64,000 nt of DNA from Anaerolineae bacterium (GTDB lineage: Bacteria; Chloroflexota; Anaerolineae; Aggregatilineales; Phototrophicaceae). A program made the position numbers and the translations under genes. The notes below the pieces were generated by a model, which saw nothing but the letters and a program-made list of their open reading frames with translations, ran no database searches and was not told the origin of the DNA. Positions 460 to 50,542 of this stretch are shown piece after piece. Each line of letters starts with the position of its first letter. Position 1 is the first letter of the stretch. The DNA is taken from assembly GCA_022824565.1 (NCBI GenBank), contig JAJDZQ010000159.1, forward strand, positions 1-64,000. Direction: 5' to 3'.

Positions 460-1836
460 ATGCAATATCACATTTGGACTCTCGGCTGCCAGATGAATGT
501 CGCCGACTCGCAGTTGCTGGCATCGGAGCTGGAAAAGCTGGGGCATCGCGCCGCTCCAAATGGCGATGAAGCCGACATCATGGTCGTCAATACTTGCGTG
601 GTGCGGCAAAGCGCCGAGGACAAGGGGCTGGGGCGATTGGGTATGCTGGGCAAGCTGAAGCGCCAGCAGCCCGACAAGATCATCGGCGTGATGGGCTGCA
701 TGGTCGGTGTGCGCGATCCACTGTGGATGCGCAAACGTCTCCCCTATGTCGATGTCTTTATGCCGCCCTCCGACCCAGCGCCCATGGTGGACTTCTTGAG
801 CGAGCGCAGCCACGAATCCGAAGCGCTACGGCTGGAAAATATCGCCCGCCAAGAACGCGACGCCTTGCAAGATGGCGAGTTGGTGCTGCCGCTGCACGAA
901 CGCGGTCAACTGGTCTGCGCGCATGTGCCGGTCGTCTATGGCTGTTCGCACGCCTGCACCTTTTGCATCATCCCCTTCCGGCGCGGCATCGAACGCAGCC
1001 GGCGCATTGGCGAGATCGTCGCGCATGTGCGCAGCCTGGCGGGGCAGGGTGTCAAAGAAGTTACTTTGCTGGGGCAAATTGTCGATCGTTATGGCAAGGA
1101 TATCGCCGATGGTCCCGACTTGTCCGACCTGCTGCGGGTTGTGCACGATACCGCCGAGCAGACGGGCCTGGAGCGCATCCGCTTCTTGACCAGCCATCCC
1201 AACTGGATGAGCGACAAGCTGCTGCACACGGTTGCCGAGCTGCCGCGCGTCATGCCGCACATCGAAGTGCCGGTGCAGTCGGGCGCGGACGAAGTGCTAT
1301 CGCGGATGCGGCGCGGTTATACGGCCGATCAGTATCGCAAACTGGTGCAAAAGATCCGCAAAATTGTCCCGCAGGTCGCTATCAATACCGATATCATCGT
1401 CGGTTTTCCGGGCGAATCGCGAGAGCACTTCATGCAGACTTATGCGCTGCTGGAAGAGCTGCAGTTGGACAAGGCGCATTTGGCGCGCTATAGCCCGCGG
1501 CCGCAAACCGTCAGCGCTCGCCGCATGGCCGACGATGTGCCCGAAGCAGAAAAGCGCGAACGGCACAAAATGCTGGAAGACCTGCAAGCCCGTGTCGTGG
1601 CGAAGATCAATGCGCAGGTTCTGGGCGAGCGAGTCGAAGCGCTGGTCGAAAACCAACACAAAGGCCGCTGGCGCGCTCGTACGCCGCAAAACAAGTTGGT
1701 CTTCTTCGAAGCCCCCGGCGATTGGCAAGGCAAACTGGCGGAATTGGAAGTTACCTGGACGGGTCCCTGGAGCATGCAGGCGCGTCTGCCCAATGCGCAG
1801 CCCCGCGCCGAACTGCCGCTCGTGATCGCTGGTTGA
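460..1836 (+). CDS. miaB: MiaB-type tRNA methylthiotransferase (radical SAM)
   Basis: 458-residue enzyme that adds the 2-methylthio group to N6-isopentenyladenosine-37 of tRNAs reading UNN codons. The N-terminal UPF0004 domain carries the three auxiliary-cluster cysteines (C10 in TLGCQMN, C46 in NTCVVR, C80 in GCMV). The radical-SAM cluster motif is CSHACTFC (C162, C166, C169). A TRAM RNA-binding domain follows at the C-terminus. Length is normal for MiaB (about 440-480). I chose ATG 460 (protein begins MQYHIWTLGCQMN, like family members); in-frame TTG 445 and GTG 454 are alternatives. MtaB or RimO are less likely because the N-terminal motif matches MiaB. The stop overlaps the start of the next gene by one base. 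Confidence 0.93.
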   Translation: MQYHIWTLGCQMNVADSQLLASELEKLGHRAAPNGDEADIMVVNTCVVRQSAEDKGLGRLGMLGKLKRQQPDKIIGVMGCMVGVRDPLWMRKRLPYVDVFMPPSDPAPMVDFLSERSHESEALRLENIARQERDALQDGELVLPLHERGQLVCAHVPVVYGCSHACTFCIIPFRRGIERSRRIGEIVAHVRSLAGQGVKEVTLLGQIVDRYGKDIADGPDLSDLLRVVHDTAEQTGLERIRFLTSHPNWMSDKLLHTVAELPRVMPHIEVPVQSGADEVLSRMRRGYTADQYRKLVQKIRKIVPQVAINTDIIVGFPGESREHFMQTYALLEELQLDKAHLARYSPRPQTVSARRMADDVPEAEKRERHKMLEDLQARVVAKINAQVLGERVEALVENQHKGRWRARTPQNKLVFFEAPGDWQGKLAELEVTWTGPWSMQARLPNAQPRAELPLVIAG

Positions 1837-2543
1837 TGCCCGGCGCTCGCTGCCAGCTCGTTCTTTGCTGCGTCTGTTTTTTGCTGGCGGCTTGCAATCT
1901 GGGCTCGCGCAGCCCCGCAGACGACACAGCCCATGCAACAGACAATACGCGCCTGCCGCCATCTATCGAGATCGGCTCGCCCGGCGATGGCGACGAATTC
2001 GTGCTCGGCGACGAGATTCTGGTGTCTGTGCTGGCTGCGGACAGCATAGGCATCAACCAGGTGAAGCTCTTCGTCGATGAACAAATTGTGCGCACAGTGT
2101 CGTCAGAGTCGCTGCAGGGCGAGCTGGCGATGAAAGCCATTCTGAACTTTGTGCCACAGCGCGCCAATCTGGGCCGCATTGTCTTGCGCGTCCTGGCCTA
2201 CCGCGGCGCAGTGGTCAGCCCGCCCGCCGAGGTCACTGTCATCGTGCGCGAATCTCCAGCGCAGATCGTGGCAACGCCCGACCAGCCGGCCGGCGTCCCC
2301 TACATCCCCAACGATGGCATCTGCCGCGCGCTGGTCAATACCGCCTTGAACTTTCGCACTGGTCCCGGCACCGGCTACCGCATCTTGTCTGTGCTGCCCA
2401 GTGGCACCCTCGCGCCCATCCGCGGGCGCAACAGCCAACACAGCTGGTGGCAGCTTTCGGCAGCGGGGCGCGCTGGCTGGGTCAGTGGCGATTTCACGAC
2501 CGAATATGGCGATTGCAGCCGTGTGCCTGTGGTCGCGGGTTGA
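1836..2543 (+). CDS. Secreted lipoprotein with C-terminal SH3-like domain
   Basis: 235-residue predicted lipoprotein. The N-terminus has a short hydrophobic signal with a lipobox LLAAC near residues 16-20, the only clear lipobox seen in this window. A central region of about 100 residues looks like an Ig-like/FN3-like beta-sandwich (begins PSIEIGSPGDGDEF). The last 65 residues (LNFRTGPGTGYRILSVLPSG onward, with WWQL and GWVSGDF) are a bacterial SH3 domain, usually a cell-wall or ligand-binding module. ATG 1836 overlaps the miaB TGA, so the genes are probably translationally coupled. This start also places the signal peptide correctly; in-frame starts inside miaB do not. Function beyond surface anchoring is unknown. 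Confidence 0.75.
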   Translation: MPGARCQLVLCCVCFLLAACNLGSRSPADDTAHATDNTRLPPSIEIGSPGDGDEFVLGDEILVSVLAADSIGINQVKLFVDEQIVRTVSSESLQGELAMKAILNFVPQRANLGRIVLRVLAYRGAVVSPPAEVTVIVRESPAQIVATPDQPAGVPYIPNDGICRALVNTALNFRTGPGTGYRILSVLPSGTLAPIRGRNSQHSWWQLSAAGRAGWVSGDFTTEYGDCSRVPVVAG

Positions 2544-2555
2544 GCCGTATCCTAG

Positions 2556-2583
2556 TTGCCATGTTGCCCGCCTGTGCTAGAAT
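2556..2583 (+). promoter_or_regulatory. Putative sigma70-type promoter for the receiver/TnpA-like fusion gene
   Basis: TTGCCA (2556-2561), 16-bp spacer, TAGAAT (2578-2583). It lies 30 bp upstream of the ATG at 2614 and just after the stop of the lipoprotein gene. Confidence 0.45.
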
Positions 2584-2613: not shown

Positions 2614-4497
2614 ATGGCGATCGCTGTGAAGCGACTAATTCTGGTTACGCAGAATGTACAATTTGCCATTGATGTCAAGCGCGCTCTCGAGGCGCTGGGC
2701 GACTATAGCGTGACCACCGCTGCCAACGCGCGCAACGCCATTGAATTCCTGCGCGAACACCATGCCGATCTGCTGTTGCTGGATACAGTCGGATTGCCGA
2801 TAGCGCCCGGCATCATGATTGATTTGGTGCGCGCGCGCGCTGCTGATATGCCTATCGTGCTTGCGCCCGACCAGCCTTCTGTGCACCAACTGGCGGATGA
2901 ATACGAAGCCAGGAGTGTCGTCGATATTCCTGTCTATGCGCGCGATCTGCTGCCGGTGCTGGAATCTGCGCTGGCCATTCGCCCCGCATCGCTGCCGCCG
3001 CTGCCGGCCGATTTGCCCCCAGCAAGCCAAGACACGCGCGAGATTGAAGCGCTGGTCGATGAAATCGTGCCAGAAGACAGCGCGCTGAATTATACCCGTC
3101 GCCGTTTGCAAGCCTCGTATGAACTGCTGCACCCGCCCGCCGAAGGACATTCCAGCACTGTGCAGGCGGTGGTCGAGCTGCAAATTGACCCGCCAGACGA
3201 AAACGATGCCATCCGTTTCTACACAACCGGCATCGCCGACGACTTTGACGAATCCACCATGGCGCCAGACAATGACGACACCGTCCGCGACCTGGCGCAG
3301 CGCCTGGCGGCAGACCCCCGATCCGAAGCCGAGCTGCCCTCCGCTGCACAATCCGCGACAGCCAGCGACGACAACGCCGCATTCCAGCAGATGCTCAATA
3401 CACTGTTGGATGAAAGCACGCAGTTGGACGACTTGAAGCTGGAATCGCTCTTTGATACCACAGCCGAGCTGACCGGCGCGTTGGGAACGGGCGTTGTGCC
3501 ACGTTGGCTGCGCGAAACCGAACAGTTGATTAACGAGCCAGACTTTTTGCGTATGCTGCTGCCGCGCCTGGACGACGAATCCGCCGACAAGACCGAACCA
3601 GCCGCGCGAAAACCAACTGCCAGCCCCCGCGTGGAACCAGTCCCGACGCCAGATGACGAAACAGTGCCCAGCGCCGACTTGCCAAGCGATATGGACACAG
3701 CCACAGAGGCAACTTGGCTGCCGCTTTCGAGTCGTGACAAAGACCCGCTCCTCGCGCAGTTGGCGCTCACCATGACGCAAAACATGACGGAGATGACCGC
3801 CGATGCCAGCGTGCTCACCCAGGGCGAGCGCATTCATGCCTTTTCGGGCGAGCTGCCGTTGGACAGATTCCGCACATTGCGGCAGTTGATTGCCGATGAC
3901 TGGGCGGCGCAGGGAGATCAATCGCGCGTACGGTTCGTGCGCCTGCCCGATGCCAGCGCCGACTATATGCTCTATTCGCGCGGCACCATCGCCGGCTTCT
4001 GCCTGACCTTGATTTTCTCTGGCGGGCGGCAACTCAGCGAGATCCGCCAGCAAGGCGAATCGCTTTTGAGCGCGCTGGCTGCTGCGCCCGCGGCATCGCC
4101 CGAAAGCCATGCCCTAGCCGATATTGCGCCCGCGCCACCAGCCGATACACAGCCTTTCTCGTTTGTCTGGCTGCTGGCAGATCCTGACTTGCCCTTGCCC
4201 AAAACTGTCGCTCAGCAGTTGCTCTTTTGGCTGGAGTTGCAGTTGAATAGCCTCGGCTGGACGATCCATCGTTTGGATGTGCATGGCGATTTCATCTATC
4301 TGTACGCCGATGTGCCCGGCAACGCCTCGCCAGACGCCTTGATTCGCGATGTCATGGAGCGCTCGCGGCAGATCGCCTGTGCCGAAGATAAGGCGCTGCC
4401 CCACGAGCTTTGGGCAGACGCCTACCTGGTCCTGCAGCCGGGCCGCGCCATCAGCGAACGCGAGCTGGGGCGTTTTTTGCAATTTGCCCGCGCCTGA
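2614..4497 (+). CDS. Receiver-like / roadblock-like / inactive TnpA(IS200)-fold fusion protein
   Basis: 627 residues, soluble. (i) Residues 1-120 resemble a response-regulator receiver: LILVTQNVQFAIDVKRAL, then LLLLDT where the phospho-acceptor Asp would be. The canonical acidic pair and Lys are not clearly kept, so it is probably degenerate. (ii) Residues 125-370 are an acidic, Pro/Ala/Asp-rich linker. (iii) Residues 374-495 read like a roadblock/LC7 fold (ERIHAFSGELPLDRFRTL ... FCLTLIFSGGRQLSEIRQQ); this is tentative. (iv) Residues 515-625 follow the IS200/IS605 TnpA (Y1 HUH) pattern: long helix, LNSLGWTIHRLDVHGDFIYL, then a region like the catalytic-Tyr helix (ELWADAYLVL). The HUH positions (normally D-H-V-H-L) read D-F-I-Y-L, so nuclease activity is not expected. 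It is flanked by housekeeping genes with its own promoter, and no IS ends were seen. It looks like a domesticated regulator. Confidence 0.6.
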   Translation: MAIAVKRLILVTQNVQFAIDVKRALEALGDYSVTTAANARNAIEFLREHHADLLLLDTVGLPIAPGIMIDLVRARAADMPIVLAPDQPSVHQLADEYEARSVVDIPVYARDLLPVLESALAIRPASLPPLPADLPPASQDTREIEALVDEIVPEDSALNYTRRRLQASYELLHPPAEGHSSTVQAVVELQIDPPDENDAIRFYTTGIADDFDESTMAPDNDDTVRDLAQRLAADPRSEAELPSAAQSATASDDNAAFQQMLNTLLDESTQLDDLKLESLFDTTAELTGALGTGVVPRWLRETEQLINEPDFLRMLLPRLDDESADKTEPAARKPTASPRVEPVPTPDDETVPSADLPSDMDTATEATWLPLSSRDKDPLLAQLALTMTQNMTEMTADASVLTQGERIHAFSGELPLDRFRTLRQLIADDWAAQGDQSRVRFVRLPDASADYMLYSRGTIAGFCLTLIFSGGRQLSEIRQQGESLLSALAAAPAASPESHALADIAPAPPADTQPFSFVWLLADPDLPLPKTVAQQLLFWLELQLNSLGWTIHRLDVHGDFIYLYADVPGNASPDALIRDVMERSRQIACAEDKALPHELWADAYLVLQPGRAISERELGRFLQFARA

Positions 4498-4572: not shown

Positions 4573-7365
4573 TTGGAGCAGCGACCGGTTCTATATCTCA
4601 TTGATGGGCATGCGCTGGCTTATCGCAGCTTCTTTGCGCTGCAGAGGGCTGGTTTTGTAACCTCGTCTGGCGAAAGCACCAGCGCCGTCTATGGCTTCAG
4701 CGCGACGCTGTTGACAATCTTTGAACAATTCCAGCCCAAATACCTGGCGGTGACTTTCGACAAAGGGCTCAGCGGGCGCGAAGAGTTTTATCCCGGCTAT
4801 AAATCATCGCGGCCGCCCATGCCGCCCGACCTGAAAGCCCAGTTTGAGCGCATCTTCGAGCTGGTGGCCGCTTTCAACATCCCCCAGCTGACCATGCCAA
4901 ATATGGAAGCGGATGACATTCTGGGCACGATCAGCCGCCAGGCAGTCGAGCAGGGCTTGGATGTGCATATTGCCACGGGCGACCGCGACATCTTGCAGCT
5001 GCTGGGACCGCATGTGCGCGTGCAGCTTCCCCAGCGCCGCGGCGATGATCTTGTTTATGACGAAGCCGCCTTCCGAGCGCGATACGCAATCGAACCGAGC
5101 CAGTTGATCGAACTGAAAGCGCTCATGGGCGACAGCTCCGATGACATCCCTGGCGTGGCGGGCATCGGCGAAAAGTCGGCGACCAAGCTCTTGCAGCAAT
5201 ATCGGGATCTGGAAGATATCTATGCGCACCTCGACGATCACAGCACGCGCGTGCGCAACTGCCTCAGCAAAGGCAAGGACATGGCTTTTCTGAGTCGCCG
5301 GCTGGCCACCATCATGCGCGACCTGGATATCAAGCTGGATCTGGATGCCTGCGTCTTGGGCGACTTTGAGCTGAAGGCGGTCGATGAAGTTTTTTCCAGG
5401 TTGGAATTCCGGTCGCACCGTGAGCGAGTGCACAAGCTGCACGGCTCGCTGCATGGCGACGAAGCGACTGGCATCGTCAAAGCCGAAGCTGTGGTCGACA
5501 CGGTCATCGTGCGCGACCAAGCGGCGCTGGCCGATCTGGTTGAGACGCTCAACAGCGCCGAGATGATCGCCTTCGATACCGAAACGACCGGCCTCGACCA
5601 AATGGCTGCCGAGCTGGTGGGCATCGCGCTGGCGGTGGCTGGCGAGCGTGGCTATTACATCCCCGTCAATCACCGCGCCGGCGCCAGAGATGGGCAGTCC
5701 AGCATGTTTAGCGAGCCAGTTGGCGACCAGTTGCCCCTGGACGAAGTGATCTCAGCGCTGCGTCCGCCGCTGGAAAACCCGGCCATCCCCAAGGTCGCGC
5801 ACAATGCCATTTATGATGTGATCATCTTGCAACGGTATGGCATCGATGTCGCGCCTATCGCCTTTGATACACTGTTGGCGGAATGGCTCAGCAACCCCAT
5901 CAGCAAGTTCCTCAAGCTCAAGGCCTTGGTGGCGCACGCGCTGGATGTGCAGATGACCGAGATTGACGAACTGCTGGGCAAGGGCAAAGACCAGAAGACG
6001 ATGAGCCAGATCGATATCGAACTGGCCGCTCCCTATGCCGCCGCCGATGCCAGTATGACCTGGCGACTCGTCCAGCCCTTGCGCGACAAGCTGAACGACG
6101 AGGGCGTGCACACGCTCTATCACAAGCTGGAACTGCCACTCATCCCCATCATCAGCCAGATGCAGCGCAAGGGCGTAGCGCTGGATGTCGACTTTCTGCG
6201 CGCTATGAGCGACCAGCAGCGCGAAAGCCTGTCCGAGTTGCAGGCGCAAATCTTTGAGCTGGGCGGCGGCAAATTCAATATCAACAGCCCCAAACAGCTA
6301 AACGAGGTGCTATTTGGCAAACTCGGCTTGCCAACCGAAGGCTTGCAGCGAACCAAGCTGGGTTTTTCGACCGACACCAACACCTTGCAAAAATTGCGGC
6401 GCGAGCACGAAATCATCGAATTGATCGAAGGCTTCCGCGAGCTTTCCAAGTTGAAGAGCACCTATGTGGATGCGCTGCCCACCTTGGTCAACCCGCGCAC
6501 GGGCCGCCTGCACACCAGTTACAACCAGACGGGCGCCGCCACCGGCCGATTCAGCAGCAGCAACCCCAACCTGCAAAACATCCCCAACCGCACAGAAATG
6601 GGGCGGCAGGTGCGCCGAGCTTTTGTCGCGCCAGCCGGTTATGGCTTTCTGGCTGTCGACTACAATCAGATCGAGTTGCGGGTCATGGCGCATATCAGCG
6701 AAGACGACACCTTGATCGAGGCTTTTCAGCGCGGGCTGGATATTCACCGAGCCACCGCCGCGGCCGTTTTTGGGATCGGGCTGGACGAAGTGAGCGACGA
6801 GCAGCGCGACTTTGCCAAGCGCGTGAACTTTGGCTTGTGTTATGGGCAGGGCGCATTTGGACTGGCCAGCCAAACGGGCTTGACGCGGTCCGAAGCCCAG
6901 TCTTTCATCGATGCCTACTTCGCCGAGATGCCCGGCGTCAAACAGTACATCGACGCGACTCGCGCGCGCGTGTGGGAGCACGGCTATACCGAAACGCTCT
7001 ATGGACGACGGCGCAGCTATCCACAGATCAAAGCGGGCCGGCGAACTCGTGGCGCGGGCAACGAAGAACGCGCTGCTATCAATATGCCCATCCAGGGAAC
7101 AGCCGCCGATATCTTGAAGCAATCCATGATCGATCTGGATGCACGACTGCGCGCTGCCGGCTGTGCTGCCGCGATGATCTTGCAAGTGCATGACGAGCTG
7201 GTGCTAGAAGTGCGCGAAGATGAATTGGCGGCGGTTGGTCCCCTGGTGGTCGAAACCATGGAAGCCGCCTTGCCCGATGGCAAACCCCTGCGCGTCCCGC
7301 TCAAAGCCAAAGCCAGCTGGGGCGGCAACTGGCGCGACATGCACGAGCTAACAGCAGCACCTTGA
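4573..7365 (+). CDS. polA: DNA polymerase I
   Basis: 930-residue three-domain polymerase for Okazaki-fragment maturation and repair. Residues 1-290 are the 5'-3' flap nuclease (LYLIDGHALAYRSFFAL, EADDI, LMGDSSDDIPGV). Residues 310-500 are a 3'-5' exonuclease with motifs intact: FDTETTGLD near 335, an HNxxxD motif II (HNAIYD), and YAAADAS motif III, so proofreading is expected, unlike Taq-type enzymes. Residues 510-930 are the family A polymerase: motif A DYNQIELR near 696, motif B KRVNFGLCYGQG, motif C QVHDELV (H873, D874). TTG 4573 gives the expected N-terminus; the next in-frame ATGs would delete the first catalytic Asp. Length matches E. coli Pol I (928). Confidence 0.97.
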   Translation: MEQRPVLYLIDGHALAYRSFFALQRAGFVTSSGESTSAVYGFSATLLTIFEQFQPKYLAVTFDKGLSGREEFYPGYKSSRPPMPPDLKAQFERIFELVAAFNIPQLTMPNMEADDILGTISRQAVEQGLDVHIATGDRDILQLLGPHVRVQLPQRRGDDLVYDEAAFRARYAIEPSQLIELKALMGDSSDDIPGVAGIGEKSATKLLQQYRDLEDIYAHLDDHSTRVRNCLSKGKDMAFLSRRLATIMRDLDIKLDLDACVLGDFELKAVDEVFSRLEFRSHRERVHKLHGSLHGDEATGIVKAEAVVDTVIVRDQAALADLVETLNSAEMIAFDTETTGLDQMAAELVGIALAVAGERGYYIPVNHRAGARDGQSSMFSEPVGDQLPLDEVISALRPPLENPAIPKVAHNAIYDVIILQRYGIDVAPIAFDTLLAEWLSNPISKFLKLKALVAHALDVQMTEIDELLGKGKDQKTMSQIDIELAAPYAAADASMTWRLVQPLRDKLNDEGVHTLYHKLELPLIPIISQMQRKGVALDVDFLRAMSDQQRESLSELQAQIFELGGGKFNINSPKQLNEVLFGKLGLPTEGLQRTKLGFSTDTNTLQKLRREHEIIELIEGFRELSKLKSTYVDALPTLVNPRTGRLHTSYNQTGAATGRFSSSNPNLQNIPNRTEMGRQVRRAFVAPAGYGFLAVDYNQIELRVMAHISEDDTLIEAFQRGLDIHRATAAAVFGIGLDEVSDEQRDFAKRVNFGLCYGQGAFGLASQTGLTRSEAQSFIDAYFAEMPGVKQYIDATRARVWEHGYTETLYGRRRSYPQIKAGRRTRGAGNEERAAINMPIQGTAADILKQSMIDLDARLRAAGCAAAMILQVHDELVLEVREDELAAVGPLVVETMEAALPDGKPLRVPLKAKASWGGNWRDMHELTAAP

Positions 7366-8435: not shown

Positions 8436-9311
8436 GTGGAACAAGTACTGGTCATTCTGGAGAGTCTCGCCCTGACCGATGTCGTTGACATCGCCATTGT
8501 GACTTTGCTTTTCTACAGCATCAGTTTGCTCTTTCGCGGCACGCAGGCGGTTGCGCTTTTTCGTGGCATCGCGCTGCTGGCGATCGGCTTGATTAGTGTG
8601 GCGGCGGTGCTGCGGCTGCAAGCGCTGAGCTGGCTGCTGGCGAATAGTTTGACCGCCCTGGTCATCGCGATTCCGGTCATCTTTCAGCCCGAGATCCGCC
8701 GCGTGCTGGAGAGGCTGGGACGCAGCGCATTCTTTGGCACTCGCCTGGCTCCAGAAGCCACGCGCGTCTCGGTGATTGACGAGATCCATAAAGCCACTAG
8801 CAAACTGAGCAGTCGCCGCCATGGCGCGCTCATTGTGCTGCAGCGCAACAGCAGCTTGCAAGAATATATTCGCACCGGTGTTGGCTTGGAAGCGGTCGTC
8901 ACGGCCGACTTGCTGGCGACGCTCTTTTGGCCCCGCACCGAGCTGCACGATGGCGCGGTCATCATCGATGACACGGGGCAGATCGCCGCGGCTTCTTGCG
9001 TTTTGCCCATCACAGCCAGCCGCAACTTGCCCAATCCCAACCTGGGCACACGCCACCGGGCAGCAGTCGGCATCAGCGAAGTGGGCGATGCGCTCTGCGT
9101 GGTTGTCTCCGAAGAGACAGGCAAGATTTCGCTCACCAATGGCGGACGCATGATCCTCGACCTGGACGCGCAGCGCTTGCAGCTGATCTTGGGTGGCGTC
9201 TATGGACCCGACCAAGCCGACCAGTTGCCGCTTGCCAGGCGCGTGCGAGAACTGCGTGACGATTTTCTGCTGCGCCTACAGACGCGCCGCCGACAAGGGG
9301 CACAAACATGA
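8436..9311 (+). CDS. cdaA: Membrane diadenylate cyclase CdaA (DisA_N/DAC domain)
   Basis: 291 residues. Three N-terminal hydrophobic helices (about residues 10-90) anchor a cytoplasmic DAC domain that condenses two ATP into cyclic di-AMP. The catalytic DGA motif (ELHDGAVIID, D172) and the RHR motif (GTRHRAAVGISE, R206) are both intact, so it should be active. Start is GTG 8436, giving MEQVLVILESLALTDVVDI as in CdaA/DacA N-termini. The 3' end overlaps cdaR by 4 bp (ATGA). The partner gene is conserved, but glmM, the usual third gene of this cluster, is absent here. Confidence 0.93.
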   Translation: MEQVLVILESLALTDVVDIAIVTLLFYSISLLFRGTQAVALFRGIALLAIGLISVAAVLRLQALSWLLANSLTALVIAIPVIFQPEIRRVLERLGRSAFFGTRLAPEATRVSVIDEIHKATSKLSSRRHGALIVLQRNSSLQEYIRTGVGLEAVVTADLLATLFWPRTELHDGAVIIDDTGQIAAASCVLPITASRNLPNPNLGTRHRAAVGISEVGDALCVVVSEETGKISLTNGGRMILDLDAQRLQLILGGVYGPDQADQLPLARRVRELRDDFLLRLQTRRRQGAQT

Positions 9312-10600
9312 TCCGGCGCTGGGCACAGACAAACGCCGCTGGCAACTTGCTCTGGCTGGCGGTATCGCTGCTGCTGGCGACCAGTGTCTGGTATATCGCG
9401 GTTACTTCTGCCGACCCCATCCAGCAGCGGCGGTTTTCCAGCGTGCCCATCCAGTTTGTGGATAGCGACTCGGCGGTTATGACCAGCAGCTCCGCCCGCA
9501 CAGCGATTGTCACTGTGCAAGGCTCGCAAGCCTCCCTGCCGCGTCTGGTGGAAGAGATCGAAGTGCGCGCCGAATTGTCTCGACTGGGACCAGGCACCCA
9601 TACCGTGCCGCTGCATGTCGATGTCGCGCCCAATACCTCAGACAGCATCCGCAGACCGGTGCTGCGCATCCAGCCGGTGCAGATTGTGGTCGAGCTGGAG
9701 CCGATCGAATCGCGCGATATGGCTATCGAGATCGCCATCATCAATCCGCCGCCGATCGGCTATCGTCATGACGAACCGCAGTTGGATCGTGACCAAGTGG
9801 TGGTTACCAGCGCTGCCAGCCGCATGTCACAAGTGGCGGCTATTCGCGGCGAGCTCGATTTGTCCGCCAGCCGCAGCCCGCTCGCACAAGAAGTCCGCCT
9901 GCATGCGCTAGATGCCGAAGGCGGCCGGATGAGCGGCGTGACACTGAGCCCACAATCGGTTCGGGTTTCCGTGCGCGTATCGCGGCGCGACGACATCCGC
10001 CAATTTCCAGTGCGACCCAATATCCTGTTACACACCTTGGCCGAGGGCTTCTTGTTCAAAGATTACAGCTATGACCCTGCTTCTATCTTCATTAGCGGCG
10101 CGCCCGAGCAGTTGGCGCAGCTTTCCGACACCTTGCTAACCGAGCGAATCAGCCTGGAGGGGCATCAAGAGAAGTTCGAGGCGACTGTACCCATCTTGCT
10201 GCCCGACGATGACTTGTTCGTCATGGGCGGCAACAACAACATCACTGTCGCGATTGACATCATTCCCATCATCGTTTCGCGCCAGATCGACAGCATTGAT
10301 ATTGACCATTTTGGCTTGAACGGGGGATTTGCGGTGACAATCGCACCCAGGACTGTGTCCGCCATAGTCAATGGTCCGGTCGTGCTGGTCGATCCACTAA
10401 CTGCCGCCGATATCCAGGTCAGTGTCGATTTGGATGGGCTCGCGCCCGGCGTATACGACCTGACGCCGTCTATCGCTATCAACCAGGGCGAACTCAGCGA
10501 GGCAAATGTATCGCTTTCGCCGTCCGTCCTGAATGTCGAGATCATCTCGACGGCAGCCAGCGACGAAGATCCCGAGGCTGAAGCGCTTTCGGAAGCCTAG
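9308..10600 (+). CDS. cdaR: CdaR/YbbR-domain membrane protein, regulator of CdaA
   Basis: 430 residues. A single N-terminal transmembrane helix (LLWLAVSLLLATSVWYIAV, near 13-31) is followed by a long extracytoplasmic region of about four beta-rich YbbR repeats. These are recognisable by recurring segments such as VQIVVELEPIESRDM, SVRVSVRVSRRDD and VTIAPRTVSAIVNGPV. In Firmicutes the YbbR protein binds CdaA and tunes c-di-AMP production. The 4-bp overlap with cdaA supports the same partnership here. The C-terminus is acidic (DEDPEAEALSEA) with no second membrane helix. Confidence 0.88.
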   Translation: MIRRWAQTNAAGNLLWLAVSLLLATSVWYIAVTSADPIQQRRFSSVPIQFVDSDSAVMTSSSARTAIVTVQGSQASLPRLVEEIEVRAELSRLGPGTHTVPLHVDVAPNTSDSIRRPVLRIQPVQIVVELEPIESRDMAIEIAIINPPPIGYRHDEPQLDRDQVVVTSAASRMSQVAAIRGELDLSASRSPLAQEVRLHALDAEGGRMSGVTLSPQSVRVSVRVSRRDDIRQFPVRPNILLHTLAEGFLFKDYSYDPASIFISGAPEQLAQLSDTLLTERISLEGHQEKFEATVPILLPDDDLFVMGGNNNITVAIDIIPIIVSRQIDSIDIDHFGLNGGFAVTIAPRTVSAIVNGPVVLVDPLTAADIQVSVDLDGLAPGVYDLTPSIAINQGELSEANVSLSPSVLNVEIISTAASDEDPEAEALSEA

Positions 10601-50321: not shown

Positions 50322-50542
50322 TTTGCCACAGAGGCACAGAGGCACAGAAGGTATTCCAATAAAGTGATGCAACAGCATGATGAAACGTCGTAGGGGCAAG
50401 GCGCAGACTCGTCCACTGGACCAACGGCGACATTGCGGGCGAGTCATCGCTTCGCCCCTACAGAATGCGAAGTAAATCGGCGTTGCCCGTTTGTCGCAAG
50501 ACTTTCTCTGTGCTCTCTGTGTGCTCTGTGCTCTCTGTGTTG
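50322..50542 (-). repeat. CACAGAG-type interspersed repeat with nested hairpin element
   Basis: Minus orientation. One end is TTTGCCACAGAGGCACAG (from 50322), the other a run of CACAGAG units (50505-50542). Inside it, 50390-50461 is a separate 72-bp imperfect palindrome: GTAGGGGC ... GACTCG at one side and CGAGTC ... GCCCCTAC at the other. No coding potential was seen in the gap 50267-50568. Confidence 0.75.
50390..50461. repeat. Nested long hairpin (GTAGGGGC/GCCCCTAC ends)
   Basis: Outer arms GTAGGGGC (50390-50397) and GCCCCTAC (50454-50461), inner arms GACTCGTCC and GGGCGAGTC. It resembles a MITE or transcript-folding element inserted in the repeat. Confidence 0.6.

Follow-up and report, generated by a model that had tools for sequence, protein, structure and literature searches.

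A disarmed TnpA-type transposase fold joined to receiver-like and roadblock-like domains in a host-kept Anaerolineae protein, usually encoded beside polA

The gene and its surroundings

The window, meaning the whole stretch of DNA that was analysed, comprises 64,000 nt from an Anaerolineae bacterium (GCA_022824565.1, contig JAJDZQ010000159.1, positions 1 to 64,000, forward strand). Near its beginning lies a gene whose product combines three recognizable domains with a long linker, and the features of this region, all on the plus strand, are as follows:

1722..2543, plus strand: upstream Ig/SH3 lipoprotein-like gene (longest open reading frame, true start uncertain; Pfam SH3_3 and Big_7; synteny)
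2556..2583, plus strand: promoter-like site, TTGCCA-16-TAGAAT, with TG ahead of the second hexamer (consensus scan only, 10/12 matches)
2614..4497, plus strand: the whole gene, 627 aa, with receiver-like domain, linker, roadblock domain and disarmed Y1 transposase fold; homologues in relatives
2626..2976, plus strand: receiver-like domain, residues 5-121, degenerate (Pfam fragment E 7.6e-5, model, Foldseek TM about 0.8)
2977..3744, plus strand: long linker, residues 122-377, mostly of low confidence (pLDDT mostly <55)
3745..4083, plus strand: roadblock/MglB-like domain, residues 378-490 (secondary structure, Foldseek match to MglB 6hjm, profile E 0.01)
4147..4491, plus strand: Y1 transposase (TnpA) fold, residues 512-626 (profile, predicted structure, Foldseek; relatives above the Pfam cut-off)
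4288..4302, plus strand: lost HUH motif, D559-F-I-Y-L563 (family alignment, residues 559-563)
4474..4476, plus strand: F621 at the catalytic Tyr position (family alignment)
4573..7365, plus strand: polA (DNA polymerase I), conserved downstream neighbour after a gap of 75 bp (linkage in 120/151 loci)

A first-pass annotation of this DNA had placed the gene between miaB and polA and had given it a promoter of its own. The downstream side of that description stands, but the immediate upstream neighbour is the Ig/SH3 lipoprotein-like gene, which also adjoins the gene in families f1 and f4, and miaB comes before that. The promoter-like site is present as described, as a match to the consensus. A promoter-like site was likewise found by consensus scan for polA, and, given this site and the 75 bp gap, co-transcription of the two genes is putative. 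Farther downstream, at 8436-10600, two open reading frames resemble, by eye, a diadenylate cyclase (CdaA) and a YbbR/CdaR protein.

Domain composition and catalytic positions

Taken alone, the window sequence gives weak family matches only (Pfam Y1_Tnp at the C-terminus, E 0.023; Response_reg, E 0.001), and the domain claim therefore needed family profiles. A profile built from 35 C-termini matched the solved structures 2f4f (E 2.1e-15), 2ec2 (1.4e-14) and ISDra2 (1.2e-12), and its matches below E 0.3 were exclusively solved IS200/IS605 transposases, while relatives of the same architecture reach at best 52-55 bits with Y1_Tnp against a Pfam cut-off of 23. The AlphaFold model shows the Y1 order b-a-bb-a-b-a in residues 512-626, the model of the roadblock plus Y1 part having a mean pLDDT of 82, and in the PDB the C-terminal model is best matched by Foldseek to TnpA structures such as 2fyx (TM 0.72, 2.7 A, 121 columns); the high rmsd against other TnpA entries may come from a different placement of helix D. 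The proposal that residues 515-625 follow the IS200/IS605 Y1 plan, for which a profile and structure comparison with TnpA (PF01797) had been suggested, is thus borne out by the profile, by Pfam in the relatives and by Foldseek, and on this profile and model evidence the C-terminal domain is judged a genuine IS200/IS605 Y1-transposase fold.

The other two domains, named receiver-like and roadblock-like from the start, were also recovered, and in each of the three domains the predicted secondary-structure elements follow the expected order. The N-terminus has a receiver fold similar to many receivers (Foldseek, TM about 0.8), and same-architecture relatives score 40-44 bits with Response_reg against a cut-off of 30. 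In the window protein this domain is degenerate: inspected by eye, the acidic pair of strand 1 and the KP motif are gone, and from the phosphorylation site set (acidic pair, Asp, Ser/Thr and Lys) only the strand-3 Asp is left. Distant relatives retain more of the receiver residues, including, in several, the KP motif. The middle domain has the roadblock order a-bb-a-bbb-a, and its model matches MglB of M. xanthus (6hjm) with TM 0.65 at 3.8 A over 122 columns; MglB also provides the top PDB matches of the middle-domain profile, yet at just E 0.01, and a search of the organism's own genome with Pfam PF03259 gave no match to the gene. That genome also encodes two stand-alone roadblock proteins (G000:C133 and G000:C101).

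The family alignment places F560 and Y562 at the two HUH positions and F621 at the position of the catalytic Tyr, in agreement with the earlier reading of D-H-V-H-L as D-F-I-Y-L. The window protein thus has neither the HUH metal-binding motif nor the helix D catalytic Tyr of IS200/IS605 TnpA. The suggested survey of relatives shows that the loss of HUH is conserved, as both histidines are kept in 0/149 family members, the first only in five and the second only in two. At the Tyr position the lineages differ: Phe is near-fixed in the window's order group (54/57 members), while Tyr is found in 87/92 members of the sister lineage around f9. Conservation in the order group peaks at W600, R611, P568, P609, W519, W549, Y604, F621 and E617, and the most conserved positions lie mostly around strand 4 and helix D, away from the old metal site.

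Disarmed or degenerate TnpA-like proteins were also seen in other settings. In a short TnpA-like protein from outside Anaerolineae (L116, G256:C43:91226-91570) the HUH is degenerate and reads D-R-V-Y, in what seems to be an unrelated loss. Three f9 genomes carry stand-alone disarmed TnpA proteins in frames of 182-194 aa (L132:2328-2888, L133:3615-4199, L134:2823-3371), each just upstream of genes for an Mrr-type restriction enzyme and a TPR protein.

Distribution, polA linkage and selection

Relatives were searched in 61 genomes, and the fusion with the C-terminal domain was found in 55 of them, at 56 loci, two of which come from G042. It is missing from G012 and from five family f2 genomes, where only N-terminal matches occur. 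Nearly all genomes searched carry a single copy of the fused gene. In G042 the second copy (L047:5901-7883) consists of two open frames (149 and 342 aa), and an intact copy that shares its C-terminus is present beside it in L046; the split copy is either a decayed duplicate or an assembly error. Across 301 genomes of the phylum, matches covering the roadblock part were confined to the window's class; outside it the matches are Y1-type, mostly in short transposase-sized frames. A scan of named records in the sister lineage added 80 loci from Anaerolineae assemblies, including those labelled Anaerolinea, Anaerolineales and Brevefilum.

In 120/151 loci the gene is the immediate upstream neighbour of polA and shares its strand, a linkage that the first-pass annotation had not described. 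These loci cover the window's genus as well as f9 and further families of the class; they are not independent counts, since a few records occur in two collections and 80 loci come from one lineage search. In families f3 and f5-f8 it lies elsewhere, or on a contig with no polA visible. Apart from polA, and from the SH3 gene in families f1 and f4, no conserved close neighbour was found across families. The gene's position beside polA is a hint of a function in DNA metabolism. Receiver-roadblock genes lacking the Y1 domain also occur directly upstream of polA (L127:5181-5990 and L128:4952-5923, as well as L231:2-301, where the roadblock is seen and the contig is cut); they belong to families f17, f19 and f91, and the polA tree that contains them, being unrooted, does not settle between gain and loss of Y1.

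Selection has acted unevenly along the protein, with the weakest purifying selection on the linker in most pairs compared. Among the five pairs closest to the window, the Y1 domain has dN/dS values of 0.04-0.15 and the linker values of 0.12-0.32; five other pairs of the genus give 0.03-0.27 and 0.16-0.46, respectively, and the Y1 value is lower than the linker value in 9/10 pairs tested. In a tree with 15 other Y1 proteins of the phylum, the Y1 domains of the protein family fall on one side of a branch with an SH-aLRT of 97; this tree is unrooted, was made by a quick method and has a short key internal branch, so that a single origin of the disarmed domains is favoured but not proven. Taken together, the observations describe a host-kept Anaerolineae protein in which purifying selection maintains a disarmed TnpA-type domain fused to a receiver-roadblock protein, and whose gene usually lies beside polA.

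Hairpins, possible roles and comparison with known systems

TnpA folds bind hairpins, and the first-pass annotation had tied the domain to dispersed hairpins in the window. The hairpin at 50390-50461 has the ends GTAGGGGC...GCCCCTAC and is a GTAGGGGC REP-type repeat; some published REP types start with GT[AG]G (PMC6006769). A search for the motif GTAGGGGCRARGC in the organism's own genome gave 60 hits, and the reversed control gave 1; in G001, G003, G007-G009, G013, G016-G018 and G020-G022 there are 0-3 hits, and each of these genomes has the gene. The REP-type repeat is thus sporadic in the genus and its presence is independent of the gene. RAYT-type genes that retain the H-x-H occur widely in the genus, and these transposases fit as partners of such repeats; in the own genome, the RAYT-like gene at G000:C106:1763-2156 has two separate open frames and is apparently fragmented. 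With repeats that come and go independently of the gene, and with the own RAYT in fragments, the hairpin link was rejected.

The charge of the domain bears on the same question. Within the order, the net charge of the Y1-like domain ranges from -2 to -16 (median -7), while the cores used for comparison have +4 and +5 (two IS200-type TnpA from the same order) and 0 and +8 (two RAYT-like relatives), and where real TnpA has a basic stretch after strand 1, the window protein has D/P/L. Hairpin binding is therefore unsupported for the window protein, as its domain is acidic, the REP repeats are independent of the gene and separate intact RAYTs exist in the genus. The suggested reuse of the fold for hairpin binding or regulation accordingly survives in part, as non-catalytic reuse within a receiver plus roadblock protein. 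Domains of the f9 group are mildly basic (median net charge +2) and keep the Tyr, and this lineage may, judging from its sequences, have retained nucleic-acid binding.

Roadblock and Y1 folds are known dimerisation platforms, and the reading preferred here is that a domesticated, catalytically dead TnpA fold probably provides a regulator-like scaffold with a module for dimerisation or protein contact. Such a protein would act in the cytosol through protein contacts. Two chains would be held together by their roadblock and Y1 folds, with the receiver, which is degenerate in the window, serving for interaction or input. The dead Y1 domain would meet the second protomer, or a partner, through its most conserved part, the face around strand 4 and helix D. 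The protein would not cut DNA and, in the window's lineage, would probably not bind hairpins. Candidate partners, suggested by the gene neighbourhood alone, are polymerase I and other DNA-repair proteins. The domain types would point to a regulatory role and argue for signalling, by analogy with RomR acting with MglB and MglC (PMC12719032). On the other side, the conserved faces may merely mirror the fold core, the Tyr and mildly basic domains of f9 may count against a scaffold, and so does the lack of an evident MglA-like partner in the own genome.

Several other explanations have to be weighed. A recent IS200/IS605 insertion is ruled out by the conserved place, the purifying selection and the lack of any intact-HUH copy among the fused relatives (149 members), and the broader idea of a recent or decaying element fused by accident, which has its likeness to TnpA in sequence and nothing more in its favour, is extremely improbable when the gene is present class-wide and the own genome gives no PF01797 match at E 1e-3. 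A mobile element would be expected at variable positions and in several copies, whereas here the polA neighbourhood is conserved and there is nearly always one fused copy per genome; the earlier suggestion of a reused fold, as opposed to a recent insertion, is thus upheld. More can be said for a dead Y1 domain that binds structured ssDNA or RNA without cutting it, as a sensor or regulator or as a link to polymerase I at gaps or flaps, because hairpin binding is established for TnpA folds, polA is the neighbour and the f9 domains keep their Tyr and are mildly basic; against the acidic domain of the window's order, the lost basic stretch, the distribution of the window's hairpins and the intact RAYT genes of the genus, this remains unlikely.

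A regulator of a small GTPase in the manner of MglB and RomR, with Y1 as a mere C-terminal dimerisation cap and polA as a chance neighbour, would agree with the Foldseek match of the roadblock domain to MglB and with the joint action of receiver and roadblock proteins on MglA in Myxococcus (PMC12719032). It is rather unlikely, since the linkage to polA persists across the class, constraint is generally strongest on the Y1 domain, and a search of the own genome (94.6% complete) for an MglA-like GTPase gave nothing clear, its two Arf-family matches lying in frames of 450 and 606 residues. A bolder reading, in which the nuclease-dead TnpA-derived domain would be the output of a signalling adaptor acting on polymerase I or on its gapped, flapped or hairpin DNA under control of the receiver and roadblock, is speculative and decidedly doubtful.

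TldR proteins are nuclease-dead, RNA-guided repressors derived from TnpB; like the present family they represent an IS605-type protein retained after loss of catalysis, but the present family derives from TnpA. Among the closest known proteins are the IS200/IS605 TnpA of the TnpA-Y1 superfamily (PF01797; 2f4f, 2ec2, 2fyx, IS608, ISDra2), with the same fold and clear C-terminal sequence homology, from which the family differs in the absence of HUH from all members, the loss of the Tyr in the window's order, the fusion to receiver and roadblock, and its maintenance as a single vertically kept gene; the published classification of that superfamily rests on the HuH/Y core (PMC6006769). TnpA-REP or RAYT proteins are likewise TnpA relatives that are host-kept as single genes, but they have an intact HUH and Tyr and function together with REP hairpins, while the present family lacks the HUH/Y core and the REP association, being disarmed and present with or without REPs (PMC8266576, PMC6006769). 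In Myxococcus, MglB, MglC and RomR also bring an MglB-fold roadblock together with a receiver-type domain (PMC12719032), whereas here both are on one chain with a Y1 domain added, and the gene lies beside polA and not motility genes, with no MglA-like partner seen in the own genome.

No description of a receiver-roadblock-Y1 fusion was found in the open-licence literature. Some family members are likely misannotated as transposases, as relatives reach 49-51 bits with the NCBIfam IS200 transposase model (cut-off 55) and exceed the Pfam Y1_Tnp cut-off, which calls for caution in annotation. The domesticated TnpA proteins described so far (TnpA-REP/RAYT) retain HUH and Tyr, while this family is a widespread case of a disarmed TnpA in a regulator-like multidomain protein genomically linked to polA, and it offers a direct test of what the TnpA fold can do without catalysis. 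If the polymerase I-adaptor reading were true, the family would correspond, across the whole class and with TnpA as its source, to the dead regulators that derive from TnpB.
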